64,000 nucleotides of DNA from Turneriella sp. (lineage in GTDB: Bacteria > Spirochaetota > Leptospiria > Turneriellales > Turneriellaceae), in the NCBI GenBank assembly GCA_019186965.1, contig JABARV010000003.1:124001-188000 (forward strand), given 5' to 3'. Positions within the stretch are counted from its first letter, which is position 1; each line of letters starts with the position of its first letter. This document shows positions 51,656 through 60,971 of this stretch, piece after piece. The translations under genes and the position numbers were made by a program. Under the pieces are notes generated by a model, which made no database searches, was not told where the DNA came from, and was given only the letters and a program-made list of their open reading frames with translations.

Positions 51656-52193
51656 TTTTTTTCCTACTAAAATATGTACGTGGGTATTTATTCTCTTCGT
51701 GCATCGCGTGCGGAAATACTTTTGCAACATAAGCGTAAGCAACTACCGCAACACAATTAGAAAGGTTTAAGCTACGCACCTTCCCCGACATTGGCAAAGA
51801 GACTTTATGCTCGATACGGCGCAAAAGTGAAGGCGGAAGGCCCATAGTTTCGTTCCCAAAAAGTAAAACGTCTTCGGGCAAATACCCAAATTCAAGAGCA
51901 GAAACACTTGCGCTTTTTGTTACCGCTACAATACGCCGCTGTGCATACGCCTCATAAAATTTTTTAAACCGTGTGTAATGTTTAAACTCCAAATACTCCC
52001 AATGGTCAAGCCCTGCCCGCCGCACCTGCCTTTCCTCGAAACTAAACGCAGCGCGGCCTGTTACAACCAAAGGGCTTTGGAGGGCAACGCACAACCGTGC
52101 AACGTTACCGGTATTCTGGGGAATTTGCGGACGGTGGAGGACAACCGTTGGTCCGCAGAAACTATTTTGCGAAGTGCTCGAAGCCGTCAACAT
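51636..52193 (-). CDS. trmL: tRNA (cytidine(34)-2'-O)-methyltransferase, TrmL-type
   Basis: 185 aa from ATG 52193; the true start may be slightly later. SPOUT-fold methyltransferase: VVLHRPQIPQNTGNVARLC, RRAGLDHWEYL, LLFGNETMGLP and RSLNLSNCVAVVAY are the TrmL signature blocks. 2'-O-methylates position 34 in leucine tRNAs in E. coli. It overlaps thiL by 32 bp upstream and mfd by 20 bp downstream, so the cluster is tightly packed. The C-terminus has about 25 extra residues. Confidence 0.9.
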   Translation of the reverse strand: MLTASSTSQNSFCGPTVVLHRPQIPQNTGNVARLCVALQSPLVVTGRAAFSFEERQVRRAGLDHWEYLEFKHYTRFKKFYEAYAQRRIVAVTKSASVSALEFGYLPEDVLLFGNETMGLPPSLLRRIEHKVSLPMSGKVRSLNLSNCVAVVAYAYVAKVFPHAMHEENKYPRTYFSRKKIGTDEN

Positions 52194-53061
52194 ACGCCAC
52201 AACTTTACCATGGCGCCTATACTCGACGCCATAGCTGCCGACTGACTTAATATATCCGACATAGTGAAAAGCAGAAGCATTTTTTGCAGCAATCCCAAAA
52301 ACAGCTAAATCTTCTGCTGCACCCAAAATATCTTCTAAACTTTTTATTTTCGCGTGTGACAATAAAATTTTATCTACGTCGACACAAAGCTGTGCATTAT
52401 TTTCTTTCGCCAAAATACGCAGCGTCTTATCCAACGAATCTGATTGATCGAGAGCTGCTTTTATGCTTTTGTGTGCAGGCAAACTTTCAAGAATTTGCGG
52501 TTTTAGAAAAAAGCGTGCAATGCGCTGCGGGGTAGATGGATTTTTTTCTAAAATTTTCCTCGCCCATTCGCTTCCGCCCACTTTACCAATCTGGAAAATT
52601 TTATCGTGTACAAAAACTTTTTTTGCACGCCTTGGAATAAATTTTCCTTTAGAACCTAAAATAGTCATCGTAAATACATCCGAAAGTGCACGCGTTGAAT
52701 CTCCACCAATTAAAGTGATGCTATATCTACAAAGCAGACGGTCTAGCTCTTTGAGAAATGGTTCTATGAAACTATCCGTTGCGCTCTTAAGGCTCAAATT
52801 TAAATTGAGCAAAGCGTATTGTGGCGTAATTCCTTTGCATAAAAAATCAGACCAATTACGCGCAAAAAGTTTATAAGCAATATCGGATGCCTTAACCCAC
52901 GCACGCTTGTAGTGTATATTTTCAATTAAACTATCGGTTGCCGCATACGTATTTTTTTCCGTACGTAGATAAGCAATATCATCGCCTACAATTAAATTTT
53001 TTTTCGAAGACCTAAGGTTTTTTATATAAGAGATAATTTCATCTTCGCTAAGTAAAGGCAC
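52162..53061 (-). CDS. thiL: Thiamine-monophosphate kinase-like protein
   Basis: 299 aa, somewhat short and divergent. GDDIAYL (about 26-32), TDSLIENIHYKR, SDFLCKGITPQYALLNL, LIGGDSTRA and a C-terminal VDGFEHF match the ThiL/PurM-like ATP-binding fold that makes thiamine diphosphate. A related AIR-synthase-fold enzyme cannot be excluded, but ThiL is the best match. It sits between proC (20 nt) and trmL. Confidence 0.8.
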   Translation of the reverse strand: MPLLSEDEIISYIKNLRSSKKNLIVGDDIAYLRTEKNTYAATDSLIENIHYKRAWVKASDIAYKLFARNWSDFLCKGITPQYALLNLNLSLKSATDSFIEPFLKELDRLLCRYSITLIGGDSTRALSDVFTMTILGSKGKFIPRRAKKVFVHDKIFQIGKVGGSEWARKILEKNPSTPQRIARFFLKPQILESLPAHKSIKAALDQSDSLDKTLRILAKENNAQLCVDVDKILLSHAKIKSLEDILGAAEDLAVFGIAAKNASAFHYVGYIKSVGSYGVEYRRHGKVVAYVDGFEHFAK

Positions 53062-53080: not shown

Positions 53081-53869
53081 TTACTTTTCTCCAGACATCT
53101 CTCTTGAACGCCGTGCGGCAATTGCAACAGCTTCCATAACTGCATTAGGAAAGCCGCGTGCATGGAGCGACTTTAACGCAACAGCAGTCGTTCCCCCTGG
53201 GCTTGTTACATCGTGTATTAAATTCTGTGGCGCATCTTGCGATTGGCGCACAAGCTCGGCAGAACCTAAAACAGTGTGTACCGCCAAACGGCGGCTATCT
53301 TTCCGCGAGAGTCCCAAGAGTACTCCTGCGTCTTCTAAGTTTTGCAAAAAAAGGTACACGTACGCAGGTCCAGAACCCGAAAGGCCAGTGACTGCATGCA
53401 ATAATTTTTCATCTTCAAGGTGGAGCGCTTCACCCACACTTTCAAAAATTTCCTTTGCGGTATCTATATCTTCTTGCGTACAAAATTTATTTCCTGTGAA
53501 CGCGGTAATTCCACGCTTAATGACAAGAGGGGTATTTGGCATTGCGCGTATGGTCGGTCCGTTTTCTTTACGCGCTTCATCTATTGCGTTAAGGGAAACT
53601 CCAGCTGCAATACTTAAAAGCAGCCTATGGTCGCGCAATTTGCTTACAGCATCTTTCACTTGAGCTGGTTTTACCGCAACAATAACCGGCCCTGCGGCAG
53701 AAAAGAGAGAATCTATATTTTCTACGATACGAATTTTTTTTACAAGGGATGGGCGTAGGCTTTTGATAACCTCTCCACTTTTTTCAAATGCAACGACTTC
53801 AAACTTACCGCTCAACGCCTGTGCAAACGCAGAGCCTATTTTCCCCAAACCAATGATGCCAACTGTCAT
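53081..53869 (-). CDS. proC: Pyrroline-5-carboxylate reductase
   Basis: 262 aa. N-terminal Rossmann motif GIIGLGKIGSAFAQAL, AVKPAQVKD, RAMPNTPLVIKRGITAF, and the C-terminal dimer domain with GSGPAYVYLFLQNLEDAGVLLGL and DVTSPGGTTAVALKSL. Final step of proline synthesis. Start overlaps the upstream transporter-PSD gene end by 4 bp (ATGA). Confidence 0.96.
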   Translation of the reverse strand: MTVGIIGLGKIGSAFAQALSGKFEVVAFEKSGEVIKSLRPSLVKKIRIVENIDSLFSAAGPVIVAVKPAQVKDAVSKLRDHRLLLSIAAGVSLNAIDEARKENGPTIRAMPNTPLVIKRGITAFTGNKFCTQEDIDTAKEIFESVGEALHLEDEKLLHAVTGLSGSGPAYVYLFLQNLEDAGVLLGLSRKDSRRLAVHTVLGSAELVRQSQDAPQNLIHDVTSPGGTTAVALKSLHARGFPNAVMEAVAIAARRSREMSGEK

Positions 53870-56193
53870 TTTTTTGCCGCCTTTACTTTTTTATTTTTTT
53901 GTGGAGTTGCTTCTGTTTTTGGTGCCGATTTCTTTTTAGAAAACAACGCAATGGGTTGCCCCAAGAGCATTTTCTGTTTCTCTTCAAACTCGAGTAACTC
54001 TACTGTGTCTTTCTCAAATAACAACATTACCGTAGAACCCATTTCAAAGCGGCCCAGCTCAGCGCCTTTGCGTATGTAGATTTCTTCTTCGTATAGATGT
54101 TCTTTTGCAAGCCGTATCCATCGGTTCGTCGCAATATTGGGGTCGTACGTGACGCAAATTTTTCCTACCGACGTCGCTCCTACTTTTACTAATGCAACAA
54201 GGCCACGCGCTGTTTCAATGTAGGTTATAAGGCGTTCGTTTTTCGAGAAAAGCTGGTTTATAGAATTAACCGCAAGGTTATTCACCGGAAAAAGTTTTCC
54301 GGGTTGGTAGTAGTACCCCAAAATACGGCCTTCGACGGGCGAGTGGATACGGTGGTAATCTTGCGGGGAGAGGTAAATCGTCATATAACAGCCGCCTAAA
54401 AATCTTTGGAAATAACGGTTGTTTCCTAAAAGGTTTTGGAGCGACGACTGCATTCCCTTAGATTGTAAAAGCTGTCCTTTATCGAGACTACCTGCGATAA
54501 GAAGCCTGCCGTCGACAGGAGAAATAATTACATTTTCTTTTTCATCAATAAGCCGCGAGCCATTTTTAAGTGCGCGGGTAAAAAATTTATTGAGCGATTC
54601 GTAATCAGAAATTTCGAGTTCTGCTTCTTGCACATTAATTTTATACACACGCGCAAACGCCAAGATAATCGGCGTCATAATAAAGCGCGGTAAACGTAGC
54701 CCTGCTAAAAATCCGTTAAGTTTTGATACCATATTTTTAGGAAGCACGGTTAAAAAAAGAACAGCGAACTTCACCGCTAAATCGTGCTTGTGCGGGAAAA
54801 AAGAAAAAAATTCGCGGGCAAGCCGTCTCACCTCGCGCATTTTTTGCAAAAGTCCCGTTAAAAAAATAAAAGCGAGAAAGGAAAAAAGGATTGAAGATAA
54901 AAGAACTTTGTCTCCCAAATTTGAAACTTTTGCCGAAAGGGCAAAAGTGGCGACGTACAAAAACCGAGCAGGCCAAATTAGTGAACGCCATCCCAATGCG
55001 GCAAAAAAACGTTCAATGATTAAAATCCAAACCGCTGCGGCAATCGAACCCAAAGAAAATGTAGCAAGCGCTATAATGAGAAATCCTCCATGCCCCAAAG
55101 ACAGGGAAAAAACATGGATAAGAGAATACTGGATTTGTGCGATAATTTCGCCTGCTGACGCAAAATGAACCACGCTTGGTTTTATCTCCGGCAAACCAAT
55201 TGCATAAGCTAAACACAAAAGAGGAATTACCAGCGTCGTATAAAAAAGCGAGGTCGACATGGAAACAAGCCCTTGTTTAACAGCGTAATCGTTAATCGAC
55301 GCCGCCGTTACCGCGCTAGATATTCCCGTTGCTTCTTCGGGTGCAACAATTCCAGTAAACGCAATCGACTTAAAAACAACAAATGAAGTTAGAAGTCCTG
55401 CGGTAAGGCTTTTAAAATTAAAAGCTTCGTTCCACGCGCTTACAATAAAGCTGGATGCTTTGGAAGAGTTTTGTAATACAAGAAAAATTGAAAGGATAAT
55501 AAGTAAACCCGTGGCAATGGGAGAGATAAACGCAGAAATTCTCGCTACGCGGCGGATACTCCCCAAGCTTAAGAACAACCCAATAAGCGCCATAACAAAA
55601 AGCGTCGTCGAATTAGAAAAAAACTCTCTGCCCAACTGCTGCGAAAATTTTGATTTTGCTGTAATTTGGTAAAAATTTTGCCATAAATCTGCCTGGACTG
55701 CCGCGCCCCAAACAAAAGAAATAACAAGCGCCAAAATTATGTAAATGGCGCTCCCGCGTTTTTTCCAAAATGTGGTGTTGAGAAACTCTTGTGCCCCCCC
55801 AAGCCAACCAGATTCCGTTTTTTGGCGGTAACGCACCGCAAGCGTTCCAGACGCAAAGCGAAGCGTTGCAAGTAAAAAGCCAAAAAGTATCACCCAAATA
55901 ATTGACGCCGAACCACCCCACAAAACGACTACGGGAATCCCCAAAAGCACCGCCGCGTTTGCTTGGATACTCCCCGCCAAAAACATGGCGCGAAGGTTGT
56001 TAATTTCACCTGCGCGGTGCATGCGGGGAATTGTTGTTCCTTCGTCTTCACGGCCAAGCCCTGTTAGCGCAATACGGAATCCAAATATAATATAGCGTAA
56101 CGGAACGAAGCGTAAGTAAAATGTGTAAACTACCGAAACACCTAAAAGGAGGATAAAAATCGCAACCGAAAGGTAGGCTTCAAGGCTATGCAT
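53866..56193 (-). CDS. psd: Amino-acid symporter-like / phosphatidylserine decarboxylase fusion
   Basis: 775 aa with two parts in one frame. Residues 1-450: about ten TM helices resembling the sodium:alanine symporter (AGCS) family (LWGGSASIIWVILFGFLLATL, APEEATGISSA, YAVKQGLVSM), though the usual GNIAGVA core is not seen. Residues about 475-755: phosphatidylserine decarboxylase with SPVDGR (558-563), YLSPQDYHRIH (607-617), GKLFPVN, NERL, and the self-cleavage site MGST with Ser720, which would become the pyruvoyl group. Makes phosphatidylethanolamine at the inner membrane. The Lys-rich tail is short. Overlaps proC by 4 bp. Confidence 0.88.
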   Translation of the reverse strand: MHSLEAYLSVAIFILLLGVSVVYTFYLRFVPLRYIIFGFRIALTGLGREDEGTTIPRMHRAGEINNLRAMFLAGSIQANAAVLLGIPVVVLWGGSASIIWVILFGFLLATLRFASGTLAVRYRQKTESGWLGGAQEFLNTTFWKKRGSAIYIILALVISFVWGAAVQADLWQNFYQITAKSKFSQQLGREFFSNSTTLFVMALIGLFLSLGSIRRVARISAFISPIATGLLIILSIFLVLQNSSKASSFIVSAWNEAFNFKSLTAGLLTSFVVFKSIAFTGIVAPEEATGISSAVTAASINDYAVKQGLVSMSTSLFYTTLVIPLLCLAYAIGLPEIKPSVVHFASAGEIIAQIQYSLIHVFSLSLGHGGFLIIALATFSLGSIAAAVWILIIERFFAALGWRSLIWPARFLYVATFALSAKVSNLGDKVLLSSILFSFLAFIFLTGLLQKMREVRRLAREFFSFFPHKHDLAVKFAVLFLTVLPKNMVSKLNGFLAGLRLPRFIMTPIILAFARVYKINVQEAELEISDYESLNKFFTRALKNGSRLIDEKENVIISPVDGRLLIAGSLDKGQLLQSKGMQSSLQNLLGNNRYFQRFLGGCYMTIYLSPQDYHRIHSPVEGRILGYYYQPGKLFPVNNLAVNSINQLFSKNERLITYIETARGLVALVKVGATSVGKICVTYDPNIATNRWIRLAKEHLYEEEIYIRKGAELGRFEMGSTVMLLFEKDTVELLEFEEKQKMLLGQPIALFSKKKSAPKTEATPQKNKKVKAAKK

Positions 56194-56239: not shown

Positions 56240-57076
56240 TTATCCAGCCTTGTGTGTAATAAACCGTGAGAGGACTAAAAACACAACTCCCGCTATAGAA
56301 ATCGTTAAAGGTAGAATTAAAAACGATGACTTTATCGCACTAATAACATTTTGGGTATACCCTATTCCGCTTAAAAACCCAAATATATTGCCACCTAAAC
56401 TTTTAAATAAACCATCCAAAAGTCCATACGGAATAAAAAGAAAAACTCCTGCAAGAAAAGAAGATATTCCAACAACCAAAAGAAATTTCCGTAAAGTACG
56501 CAAAAGAAGCATTAAAGTAACAACTACAAGAAGAACAATAACTATCGAAGAAATATAGAACCTTTTAAATTTTTTGTACTCAGGAGCTATTTTTGAGCGT
56601 ACATCCTCCAATTCTTCTGGTGAAACCTTTGCGATTTTTAAGACATCAAATTTTTTGGGAATAGGTATATCGTTTTTAAGAGCTGTTAAATCGTAAACAA
56701 TATCCAGTTTTTCTTTATCTCCCTGGAAGTACTCAAACGTAGAGGCGATATTTTTTTTGGTTTGTGCCTTTATTTGTGGTCCAAGAGTTTTTAAAACATA
56801 GGGCAAAATTTCTAAAGTTATTCTCTGTTCTGTAGCATTGCCAGTTTCTGCTACACCATCTTCTAAATCCTCATCTTTTTGCGTGTGCTTTTTTTCTGCT
56901 TCTTCTTTTTTGAGTTTAGCAAATACTTCGGGCGCCCTCGATAAATCGATAGTATCGAGTGCGTTTGAGTACAACACAGGATTTAAAAATGTACGTTTAA
57001 ACGTAAAACTTAATCCTGCAAAAAATAAAGATACAAAAAGAAAAAAAGCCAGCAAAACAGTTAAAAATTTACGCAT
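56240..57076 (-). CDS. Four-TM membrane protein of unknown function
   Basis: 278 aa. TM1 at about 4-26, then a hydrophilic, Glu/Lys-rich extracytoplasmic domain (27-170), then three TM helices (about 174-195, 198-222, 245-268). I recognise no family. It lies between the decarboxylase (12 nt) and the transporter-PSD gene (46 nt) and is probably co-expressed with both. Confidence 0.7.
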   Translation of the reverse strand: MRKFLTVLLAFFLFVSLFFAGLSFTFKRTFLNPVLYSNALDTIDLSRAPEVFAKLKKEEAEKKHTQKDEDLEDGVAETGNATEQRITLEILPYVLKTLGPQIKAQTKKNIASTFEYFQGDKEKLDIVYDLTALKNDIPIPKKFDVLKIAKVSPEELEDVRSKIAPEYKKFKRFYISSIVIVLLVVVTLMLLLRTLRKFLLVVGISSFLAGVFLFIPYGLLDGLFKSLGGNIFGFLSGIGYTQNVISAIKSSFLILPLTISIAGVVFLVLSRFITHKAG

Positions 57077-57088
57077 ATTACCTCCAAT

Positions 57089-59344
57089 TTATTTTTGCGG
57101 AACGCAGTCGACAAAATAATCAAACGTACCGCGTTCGTTAGGCTCCTCGACAAGCCCGTGGAATTCATTTTGGAATCCAGGAAAACGGTCGTTAAAATCA
57201 CGCACAAATTTCAAGTACTCAAGTATTGTTGTATTGATGCGCTCTCCCGGAATAAGAAGGGGAATTCCCGGCGGGTATGGCGTTAAAAGTACCGCTGTCA
57301 CACGGCCTTCTACAGCGTCTATAGGAAGCCTTTCGGTTTTACGGTGCGCCATTAATGCGAACGCCTCGGCAGGAGGCATCACTGCTTCCATGGGAGAAGT
57401 ATACATTTCGGTCGTAAGCTGGGCAATGTTACGCGCCCGGTACACTGAATGGATGTCGAAGCACAGGTCTTTAATTCCCATACGGCTATACTGCGGGTAT
57501 TTTGACGCAAACTGGGGCATTGCACGCCACAAAGGACGGTTGTGGTCGAATGCTTCTTTAAACTGTTGTAGCTCCGTAACGAGGGTATTCCATCTACCTT
57601 TTGTAATACCAATCGTGAACATTATAAAGAAAGAATAAAGTCCTGTTTTTTCGACAACAATCCCATGCTCGGCGAGGTAGTGCGTTACAACCATTGCAGG
57701 GATTCCCCATTCGTCAAAAGTCCCGTCGAGGCGAAGCCCGGGAGTAATTATTGTTCCTTTAATAGGATCGAGCATATTAAATCCTGGAGCAACCCCTTCG
57801 AAACCATGCCACGCAGCGCCAGGATCTAAAAACCAATCTTCGCGTGCGCCGATTCCCTCTTCAGCCAAAGTCTCAGGACCCCAAACTTTAAACCACCAAC
57901 CACCACCCCACTCACGCTCAACTTTACGCATCGCACGGCGGAAATCCAACGCTTCTAAAATGGATTCCTCGACAAGCGCAGTCCCCCCAGGAGCTTCCAT
58001 CATTGCAGCGGCAATATCACAGCTTGCAATAATCGCATACTGTGGGCTTGTACTTGTGTGCATGAGGAAAGCTTCGTTAAAAATATCCCTATCCAAAATT
58101 TCTTTTTCAGAATTTTGTACGAGGATTTGGCTTGCTTGCGAAAGCCCTGCAAGAAGCTTGTGCGTCGATTGGGTAGAAAAAACTAAACTTTCTTTTGTGC
58201 GCGGGCGACCCTCACCAATAGCGTGCATATCTTTGTAATACGGATGGAAAGCGGCGTGCGGTAGCCACGCTTCGTCGAAATGGAGGTTATGGATTTTTCC
58301 GTCTAACTTCTCTTTAATTTTTTCGACATTGTAGATAATTCCATCGTAGGTACTCTGCGTAATGGTTAGGATACGCGGCTTTCCTTTCACTTTATTTGCG
58401 AAGGGATGATTTTTTATTTTTTTCTCAATACTTTCCCAAGTAAATTCGTTTTCGGGTATTGGACCAATAATTCCGTAGTGGTTCCGCGTGGGAGTTAAAA
58501 ATACAGGAATTGCTCCCGTCATGGTAATTGCGTGGAGGACAGACTTGTGGCAATTGCGGTCGACAACGACAACATCCCCTGGAGCTACCGCAGAATGCCA
58601 TACAATTTTATTTGAAGTTGAAGTTCCATTCGTCACAAAGTATACAGTATCGCACTGGAAAATACGTGCAGCGTTTACTTCGCTCTCGACAACTGGCCCA
58701 CGGTGGTCTAAAAGCTGCCCCAATTCCTCCACCGCGTTACACACGTCTGCGCGTAACATGTTCTCGCCAAAAAATTGGTGGAACATACGACCAACAGGGC
58801 TTTTCAAAAAAGCAACCCCACCCGAGTGCCCAGGGCAATGCCACGAATACGAACCGTCGTATGCGTACTGCGTAAGCGCACGGAAAAAAGGCGGTGGCAA
58901 CTTGTCGAGGTATGTATTAATTTCACGCACAATGTAACGCGCAACAAATTCGGGAGTATCTTCGTGCAGGTGGATAAACCCGTGCAGTTCTTTTAAAATT
59001 GTGTTGGGAATATGCCGGCTTGTACGTGTTTCTCCATAAAGGAAAACAGGGATGTCTGCGTTACGGCGGCGGATCTCGCGCACAAAGGCATCAAGCTGCA
59101 CAAGGACTTTTGGCTCTTCGCCATTTTCCGTAGCGATAAACTCTTCGTCGTCGACCGAGACGATAAACCCGCCAGCGCGGCTTTGCTGCTGTACAAAGCT
59201 TGAAAGGTCGCCATAATTTGTTACCCCAATAACCTCCATCCCTTCTTTTTCGATAGCAGATGCAAGGGCGCGTATACCAACGCCGCTATTATTTTCGGAG
59301 CGGTAGTCCTCGTCGATAATAAAAACAGGAAAATTAAATTTCAT
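57089..59344 (-). CDS. Orn/Lys/Arg decarboxylase (fold type I PLP enzyme)
   Basis: 751 aa from ATG 59344, preceded by AAGGGG. N-terminal response-regulator-like wing domain (about 1-130), PLP domain with WHCPGHSGG, Lys396 in QSTHKLLAG binding PLP, FDEAWLPHAAFHP, and C-terminal domain ending in DYFVDCVPQK. Length and motifs match bacterial basic-amino-acid decarboxylases (arginine AdiA, lysine CadA, ornithine SpeC). Arginine is my slight preference from TSTSPQYAIIASCD, but substrate is not settled. Feeds polyamine synthesis or acid resistance. Confidence 0.9.
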   Translation of the reverse strand: MKFNFPVFIIDEDYRSENNSGVGIRALASAIEKEGMEVIGVTNYGDLSSFVQQQSRAGGFIVSVDDEEFIATENGEEPKVLVQLDAFVREIRRRNADIPVFLYGETRTSRHIPNTILKELHGFIHLHEDTPEFVARYIVREINTYLDKLPPPFFRALTQYAYDGSYSWHCPGHSGGVAFLKSPVGRMFHQFFGENMLRADVCNAVEELGQLLDHRGPVVESEVNAARIFQCDTVYFVTNGTSTSNKIVWHSAVAPGDVVVVDRNCHKSVLHAITMTGAIPVFLTPTRNHYGIIGPIPENEFTWESIEKKIKNHPFANKVKGKPRILTITQSTYDGIIYNVEKIKEKLDGKIHNLHFDEAWLPHAAFHPYYKDMHAIGEGRPRTKESLVFSTQSTHKLLAGLSQASQILVQNSEKEILDRDIFNEAFLMHTSTSPQYAIIASCDIAAAMMEAPGGTALVEESILEALDFRRAMRKVEREWGGGWWFKVWGPETLAEEGIGAREDWFLDPGAAWHGFEGVAPGFNMLDPIKGTIITPGLRLDGTFDEWGIPAMVVTHYLAEHGIVVEKTGLYSFFIMFTIGITKGRWNTLVTELQQFKEAFDHNRPLWRAMPQFASKYPQYSRMGIKDLCFDIHSVYRARNIAQLTTEMYTSPMEAVMPPAEAFALMAHRKTERLPIDAVEGRVTAVLLTPYPPGIPLLIPGERINTTILEYLKFVRDFNDRFPGFQNEFHGLVEEPNERGTFDYFVDCVPQK

Positions 59345-59459
59345 GGTTAACGCCCCTTTTATGAATGCGCGATAGAGCGAGAACCTCAAAGAAGTTTTCT
59401 AAACGTACATACCTACATTCCAATGGACTACCTCTTTCGCTTTTAAATTTTTACTCTAC

Positions 59460-60314
59460 ATGCGCGGCGCCATTCGCCAATTCTTTTTCTACACACAGGT
59501 TTTAAGTCTTGATGTCACCTTCGGCGTTTTGGGTTCGGGCGCATTTGCCAAAAGCGTTCTTAACGCTAAAATGAAAAGCGTGTGGTGGTTTCTGCTGCCT
59601 GCAAGCGTTTGGGTTATATATACCGCAGACCACTTAATGGATGCACGCAAAGTAGGGAAAAACGCCGTCAATGCGCGGCATAAATTCCATGCAGACCATT
59701 TTACTGTTATCTTTTTTGTCATGGTTTGCGTCGCTATTTTATGTGCGCTCGCCGCTATTTTTTTTCTTCCCGAAATTGTTTTAACTGGCGGTATCTTTGT
59801 CGCTGCGTTTGCGCTTTTCCACCTTGTTTTTGCGTACTGGGGAAAAATACGTTTTGGTAAAGAAATTTCTGTTGCGCTAATTTATTCGTGCGGCGTTTGG
59901 TTTGCACCTTTCCTTAACAGGCGTATCCCTATTTCTACTTTAGAAATCTTTGCATTCGCTTTTTTTATACTTGCAGCGCTCCTTAATCTTTTTATGAACT
60001 CGGTTTTGGAGCACCATCTGGACGCAGAAGAAAATTTAGTCTTTGGGGTAAAGCATAGGCTTATGGAAAAAATACGCTTGGGGATAATTATCCTTTCAAC
60101 TTCCAGCGGCGTTTTTTTACTTTTCTCCATGCTTTACTTTGCTTTTATTGGCGGCTCTATTTTTTACGCTAAATCTTCTTTATATGTATCCATTTTATGC
60201 ATAACGCCTGGAGTAATCCTATACTATGAAAAATATTTTATACAAGACCAACGCTACCGAATCGCTGCCGAATGGGTATTTATGTTAGGGCTTTTTCTTT
60301 TACCTACCCCCTAA
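59460..60314 (+). CDS. UbiA-superfamily-like integral membrane protein
   Basis: 284 aa with about eight TM helices. YTADHLMDARK (about 56-66) resembles the first Asp-rich motif of UbiA enzymes in a reduced form, and LLNLFMNSVLEHHLDAEENL (about 176-195) stands where the second would be. Probably a prenyltransferase-like protein of unknown acceptor. The next gene, a methyltransferase, begins at the base after its stop, suggesting a shared pathway. Confidence 0.65.
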   Translation: MRGAIRQFFFYTQVLSLDVTFGVLGSGAFAKSVLNAKMKSVWWFLLPASVWVIYTADHLMDARKVGKNAVNARHKFHADHFTVIFFVMVCVAILCALAAIFFLPEIVLTGGIFVAAFALFHLVFAYWGKIRFGKEISVALIYSCGVWFAPFLNRRIPISTLEIFAFAFFILAALLNLFMNSVLEHHLDAEENLVFGVKHRLMEKIRLGIIILSTSSGVFLLFSMLYFAFIGGSIFYAKSSLYVSILCITPGVILYYEKYFIQDQRYRIAAEWVFMLGLFLLPTP

Positions 60315-60971
60315 ATGAAAAAAAACACTTTGCGCATCCAAAAAGGATTTAACCTAATCGCACCTGTATACGATTTTTTTGCTACATTTTTTTTTGCTAA
60401 CCTACTCCACCGTGCGCAAACCTTCCATACCGCACAATTAAAAAAAGCCAAAAAAACTCTTATCGTGGGCGGCGGTACAGGAAAAATTCTTGCAGAACTT
60501 ATAAAATCAAAAGTCTCCGATAAATACCACTATATCGATATCTCCCCAAAAATGATTGCACTTACAAAAAAACGTATTTCTTCTATGAAACTTTCTTCTT
60601 TAGAAATCGTATTTGAATGTTCTCCTATTGAAGAAGCGCATACAACCACTTACGATCTTATTGTAACGCCGTTTGTACTCGACTCCCTCGATAAAGATAC
60701 CCTTCCTTTAGTTTTTGAAAAACTACGCGCCTCTTTATCTCCCAAAGGAGAGTGGCTTTTTGTCGACTTCCATATTCCTTCGGGAAAAATGCGCTTCGTC
60801 TCGAAGGCAATTATAAAAATTCTCTACTTTGCATTTAACCTCTTATGCTCGTTACGTGTGTATAGCCTTCCCCCCTTTGAAAAATATTTTGCAAAATACG
60901 GATTTACTCTGCTTTCCGAAAAGTTTTTTCTAAAATCTCTTTTAGTTTCCCGCGTATATCGTTTAGGCTAA
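60315..60971 (+). CDS. Class I SAM-dependent methyltransferase
   Basis: 218 aa. SAM-binding motif I LIVGGGTGKIL (about 49-59), acidic motif II YHYIDISPKMI, motif post-II YDLIVTPFVLDSL and LSPKGEWLFVDFH. The closest general type is the UbiE/ubiquinone-menaquinone-type or small-molecule methyltransferase. Translationally linked to the UbiA-like gene, so a lipid or quinone-like substrate is plausible. Confidence 0.82.
   Translation: MKKNTLRIQKGFNLIAPVYDFFATFFFANLLHRAQTFHTAQLKKAKKTLIVGGGTGKILAELIKSKVSDKYHYIDISPKMIALTKKRISSMKLSSLEIVFECSPIEEAHTTTYDLIVTPFVLDSLDKDTLPLVFEKLRASLSPKGEWLFVDFHIPSGKMRFVSKAIIKILYFAFNLLCSLRVYSLPPFEKYFAKYGFTLLSEKFFLKSLLVSRVYRLG

Follow-up and report, generated by a model that had tools for sequence, protein, structure and literature searches.

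A symporter-derived membrane domain fused to phosphatidylserine decarboxylase in Turneriella and its class of spirochaetes

Phosphatidylserine decarboxylase (Psd) is a textbook enzyme that stands alone in most bacteria, while nearly a whole class of spirochaetes bears it only in fusion with a transporter-derived membrane domain. We describe this fusion from the window, a stretch of 64,000 nucleotides from Turneriella sp. (contig JABARV010000003.1, positions 124,001 to 188,000), in whose genome the fusion gene is the only Psd and the only member of the AGCS family of sodium:alanine symporters that we found. The reading that we favour, with a probability of about 60%, is that the fused half was initially a working symporter and that, in the lineage of the window, it has become a membrane scaffold and possibly a regulator of the cell's only Psd. 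Intermediates span the way from a canonical symporter to a domain that is no longer recognisable from its sequence, and therefore offer a rare natural series of a transporter losing its job and perhaps gaining another. Each half belongs to a known family, and public genomes already contain the proteins; in the literature searched, mostly beyond subscription journals, we found no published description of an AGCS-Psd fusion, in agreement with an earlier note on this DNA, which knew of no described system of this kind. The fusion makes the tethering or regulation of phosphatidylethanolamine (PE) synthesis in these spirochaetes directly testable.

The fusion gene is a minus-strand ORF with an ATG start and no internal stop codons (Table 1), and its start Met lines up with that of its congeners. 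Pfam matches both halves above their cut-offs: residues 60-462 to PF01235 (Na_Ala_symp; 89.7 bits against 24, E 3.2e-25) and residues 534-749 to PF02666 (PS_Dcarbxylase; 197.3 bits against 22, E 2.8e-58); such a two-domain match is far above chance level and recurs in about 40 genomes. Among solved structures, E. coli PSD and the symporter AgcS match best in sequence. In NCBIfam, the Psd model TIGR00163 scores 210.3 bits against a cut-off of 111.75, and the agcS model TIGR00835 scores 85.5 bits, below its curated cut-off of 272.65. As judged from sequence, the window protein is a Psd by family membership, and its membrane half is of AGCS descent but is not classed as an AGCS symporter, given its replaced motifs and its curated score. 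These results uphold the earlier note's central claim of a single frame that joins a symporter-like domain to a complete Psd, and shift its boundaries. The membrane half, described there as about ten transmembrane helices in residues 1-450, has the layout of AgcS, with about eleven helices and an extent of residues ~8-468 by structure; the Psd, given as residues ~475-755, is a complete enzyme whose start we now place near residue 474-484.

Table 1. Features of the fusion gene and its downstream neighbours in the window
Feature	Position	Strand	Basis
Fusion gene: AGCS-like membrane domain + phosphatidylserine decarboxylase, 775 aa (stop codon included)	53866..56193	-	ORF; Pfam/NCBIfam; class-wide single-frame orthologues
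AGCS/LeuT-fold domain, residues ~8-468	54790..56172	-	PF01235 at 60-462; AlphaFold model vs AgcS 6cse
NAAV, residues 79-82, replacing AGCS GTGN	55948..55959	-	Alignment
PEEATGI, residues 285-291, replacing AGCS NEAGLGS	55321..55341	-	Alignment
Phosphatidylserine decarboxylase domain, residues ~484-755	53929..54744	-	Pfam; TIGR00163; E. coli PSD 7cnz, Z 25.4
MGST, residues 718-721; predicted self-cleavage Gly719-Ser720, pyruvoyl at Ser720	54031..54042	-	Sequence; invariant residues
proC (pyrroline-5-carboxylate reductase)	53081..53869	-	TIGR00112, 232 bits; conserved neighbour within order
ThiL/PurM-like gene (named by sequence resemblance), third of the fusion-proC-thiL block	52162..53061	-	Synteny

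The ancestry of the membrane half is most visible in its fold. In an AlphaFold model of the window protein (pLDDT 81.8), this predicted half superimposes on AgcS, the Na+/alanine symporter of Methanococcus maripaludis (PDB 6cse/6csf, PF01235), with a Z-score of 43.7 and an rmsd of 2.5 over 421 aligned residues. The two share the whole membrane fold, and their sequence similarity is weak but almost full-length; fold and Pfam match together bear out AGCS ancestry and speak against a non-transporter family, which the earlier note had listed among its possible refutations. Unlike AgcS, the window protein carries a C-terminal Psd, and its core motifs have been replaced, as that note had suspected in calling the core degenerate. 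When the window protein is aligned to 18 stand-alone AGCS and to 7 fused domains that are canonical or nearly so, the AGCS motifs GTGN, GGPGxxFWMW, GIGNMVQ and NEAGLGS, whose cores (GxGN, GGPGxxxWMW, GNxxQ, NExGxGS) are common to nearly all sampled stand-alone AGCS, are substituted by NAAV, GGSASIIWVI, GAAVQ and PEEATGI; binding residues were assessed through these family-wide motifs. Because of this replacement, the delivery of serine or another amino acid by the window protein, also suggested earlier, is unsupported; such delivery could plausibly occur in the canonical relatives described below, though not in the window copy. With the helices taken from the model and the C-terminus set inside, the K/R charges of the membrane half number 19 inside and 7 outside, and this fit with the positive-inside tendency supports the modelled topology and a cytoplasmic Psd.

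The Psd half corresponds to the whole E. coli enzyme (PDB 6l06, 7cnw-7cnz), including its N-terminal helices and its catalytic and processing residues. The GST self-cleavage motif and the Asp and His residues that align to the E. coli PSD active site are present, the MGST cleavage site at Ser720 is found as previously proposed, and G719, S720, T721, D561, H614 and H617 are invariant in an alignment of 38 fusion proteins. Psd enzymes of this type cleave themselves before the Ser of the GST motif to become pyruvoyl enzymes, and E. coli Psd acts on the cytoplasmic membrane face; whereas the E. coli protein stands alone, the window Psd is preceded by ~470 residues of transporter-derived sequence. 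We propose that a PssA-type synthase supplies phosphatidylserine (PS), that the Psd half would cleave itself at Gly719-Ser720 into a beta chain of ~79 kDa (membrane domain plus Psd beta) and a pyruvoyl alpha chain of ~6 kDa, and that the processed enzyme would make PE. After cleavage, the membrane half would still be covalently joined to the beta chain, and could serve as a built-in integral-membrane scaffold, possibly also as a regulator, that keeps Psd at the cytoplasmic leaflet, with the cytoplasmic loops of the former transporter as a platform facing the enzyme. The membrane half may also hold a regulatory ligand site, and its conserved, rewritten core would leave room for a new ligand. 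A pssA-like gene was detected in 21 of 21 genomes tested; its score in the window genome is under the curated cut-off, and in T. parva over it.

The earlier note's other suggestion, a re-purposed membrane anchor, comes nearer to this proposal, but is incomplete. At its N-terminus, the Psd half retains membrane-associating helices of its own, like those of E. coli Psd, so that there is more to the membrane half than a simple anchor, and an additional anchor is not obviously needed; likewise, the high conservation of the rewritten core within Turneriella means that a bare anchor is not a full explanation.

To trace the fusion, we sampled 48 genomes from the class to which Turneriella and Leptonema belong, with its families labelled f1 to f6. 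The architecture that the earlier note described from the window is present in one frame in 40 of them, which amounts to 40 of the 45 genomes with a Psd, a few of the frames running off their contigs; both the complete Turneriella parva genome (G005) and Leptonema illini (G029) have it intact. G031 has the fusion interrupted by contig ends, and in G036 (L100:1218-3441) a single frame shift divides it into ORFs of 310 and 381 aa, which may be a sequencing error or a real split. Psd stands alone in three of the 48 genomes (G014, G016, G027) and was not found in three others (G013, G037, G046); these absences, as well as the stand-alone Psd of G027 (L045:698-1546), which sits on a very long branch, could reflect lineage-specific simplification or incomplete genomes. 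In the remaining phylum sample, stand-alone Psd frames measure at most 487 aa, barring one of 618 aa in G054, which we rejected: its Psd is ordinary, the frame upstream of it is spurious, and a PssA-like gene comes next. The plasmid collection yielded single-domain matches only, none over 80% of the query, and no fusion. A peptide-pattern scan of genome contigs matched three Turneriella-like MAGs, the patterns being too specific for a wider reach.

In a tree of AGCS domains, a branch with support of 100/99 separates 26 of 26 sampled fused domains from 18 of 18 stand-alone carriers. This tree and the motif tables were built from hand-picked ORFs; the seed profile, which includes a few stray ORFs, served for domain location only. 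That the fused domains lie together behind this branch points to one ancient fusion, subject to the caution that long branches demand: a Na+/alanine-type symporter appears to have been fused once in front of psd, in the ancestor of the class. Under the same caution, the joint grouping lends no support to two independent fusions, one canonical and one degenerate, which we had also considered. The Psd tree joins the Turneriella proteins in one group with fused relatives from f1 and f4 (support 88/97). Some of these relatives, G008-G012 of f1 and G017 of f4, possess an intact symporter half with complete GTGN, GGPGALFWMW, GIGNMxQ and NEAGLGS motifs and Pfam scores of ~395-436 bits, and there, as in the f1 genomes at large, no AGCS other than the fused copy was found; the fused half of G015 is nearly canonical at 350 bits. 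Since the symporter is still intact and canonical in the fusions of these related genera, transport is probably the ancestral state of the fused half, and, going by their sequences, the halves of G008-G012 and G017 probably still transport a small amino acid. In Turneriella and its neighbour G007, all core motifs are replaced, and so they are, with different letters, in the Leptospirales-like families f5 and f6, which implies decay or rewriting of the core on at least two occasions. Several f6 members have separate canonical AGCS genes besides the fusion. AGCS falls below Pfam detection in six fused members; one protein without a Pfam match, L022, is modelled with the AgcS fold (Z 35.9 over 391 residues), from an alignment that included some recognisable members. 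The membrane half has been lost in f3 and apparently also in G027. As a truly bifunctional transporter-decarboxylase, the best candidates are the proteins of G008-G012 and G017 (L010-L013, L029, L049).

That the fusion is an artefact of assembly or annotation is practically out of the question: the window does come from a draft genome (G000; 3.08 Mb in 27 contigs), but the same ORF with the same neighbours occurs in the complete T. parva genome, where the frame is unbroken, and in about 40 independently sequenced genomes. With 40 open frames at hand, we rejected the assembly join or frameshift that the earlier note had allowed for, and also its other reservation, two separate genes at the same place in relatives: none were found, f3 having Psd alone there with an unrelated gene upstream, and G036 showing a frame break in an otherwise matching ORF pair. 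It is also very improbable that the fused domain is a neutral relic, inherited baggage kept only because the reading frame begins there. Such a relic could be lost, as the half was in f3 and apparently in G027, and could diverge fast, as it does, the mean identity between Turneriella species being 67% in the membrane half and 90% in the Psd half. However, dN/dS is 0.05-0.14 in the membrane half and 0.02-0.03 in Psd, with synonymous sites near saturation and some pairs not computable, and values so far under 1 indicate a half that diverges faster but is clearly constrained; purifying selection acts on both halves. Furthermore, the domain stays in one open frame in 40 genomes, and its fold persists even below Pfam detection. 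Constraint also seems to be redistributed. Measured against stand-alone AGCS, the relative excess of conservation on the cytoplasmic side reaches 0.51 (95% interval 0.34-0.69) in f5 and 0.46 (0.15-0.79) in f6; for the canonical fused set it is 0.16 (0.01-0.31), and for Turneriella 0.18, which is not significant (-0.04 to 0.40). On the modelled topology, conservation in the fused proteins has moved towards the cytoplasmic, Psd-bearing face, clearly in f5 and f6 and at the borderline in Turneriella. Within Turneriella, few stretches of the domain are as well conserved as the rewritten segments of its former core (61-120 and 286-330), a hint of some new function in binding or transport, as opposed to a passive scaffold.

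This strongly conserved core, with dN/dS well below 1, is also what one would expect if the membrane half were still a working carrier of small solutes, be it alanine, glycine, serine or a new substrate, physically linked to Psd for metabolic coupling or regulation, and the high-scoring, intact symporter halves that are the sole AGCS of G008-G012 and G017 point the same way. We nevertheless consider such a carrier unlikely in the window protein, in which all four motifs are replaced and the agcS score is far under its cut-off; the same core has decayed in f5 and f6, and several f6 members keep a separate canonical AGCS. More doubtful still is a lipid translocase or lipid-substrate channel, which would move PE or present PS during synthesis by Psd. 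A fusion of synthase and flippase has a precedent in MprF, which combines an aminoacyl-phosphatidylglycerol synthase and a flippase in one protein (PMC8131360). Both MprF and the window fusion join a phospholipid-modifying enzyme to a large membrane domain; their families and lipids differ, however, and the flippase role belongs to MprF, being only putative for the fusion. This reading is favoured by the position of Psd, which is on the PE-producing side of the membrane, and by the former substrate region, which has been remodelled but stays conserved. Against it, the canonical relatives would need some different role, MprF is not known to share a fold with the LeuT-fold half, and a lipid translocase of this type with the LeuT fold is not known to us. 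We accordingly give little credence to the scenario that a LeuT-fold amino-acid symporter could have been converted in place, more than once, into a PS-presenting or PE-translocating module coupled to Psd.

At the locus, the ATG of proC overlaps the TGA stop of the fusion (ATGA, 53866-53869), so that the two are probably co-translated; the overlap suggests that translation of a gene for lipid synthesis is coupled to that of a gene for proline synthesis. Within the order of Turneriella, the fusion-proC-thiL block is conserved in f1 and f4. The stand-alone Psd of f3 (G014, G016), from the same order, occupies the same proC-thiL slot, as shown for G016, but lacks the membrane half. Since the gene upstream of Psd in G016 is unrelated to the AGCS half, the latter was lost and not split off, and the retention of Psd in its slot shows that the membrane half is dispensable in f3. 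Just upstream of the fusion in the window, a membrane protein of 278 aa (56240-57076) matches no family over cut-off and is absent beside the T. parva fusion; farther upstream lies an Orn/Lys/Arg decarboxylase (57089-59389), which does not neighbour the fusion in T. parva either. At 59460-60971, a prenyltransferase-like protein of the LA_0991 family (272.9 bits, cut-off 300) is directly followed by a UbiE/CpaM-type methyltransferase, and the two are possibly a lipid or quinone modification pair.
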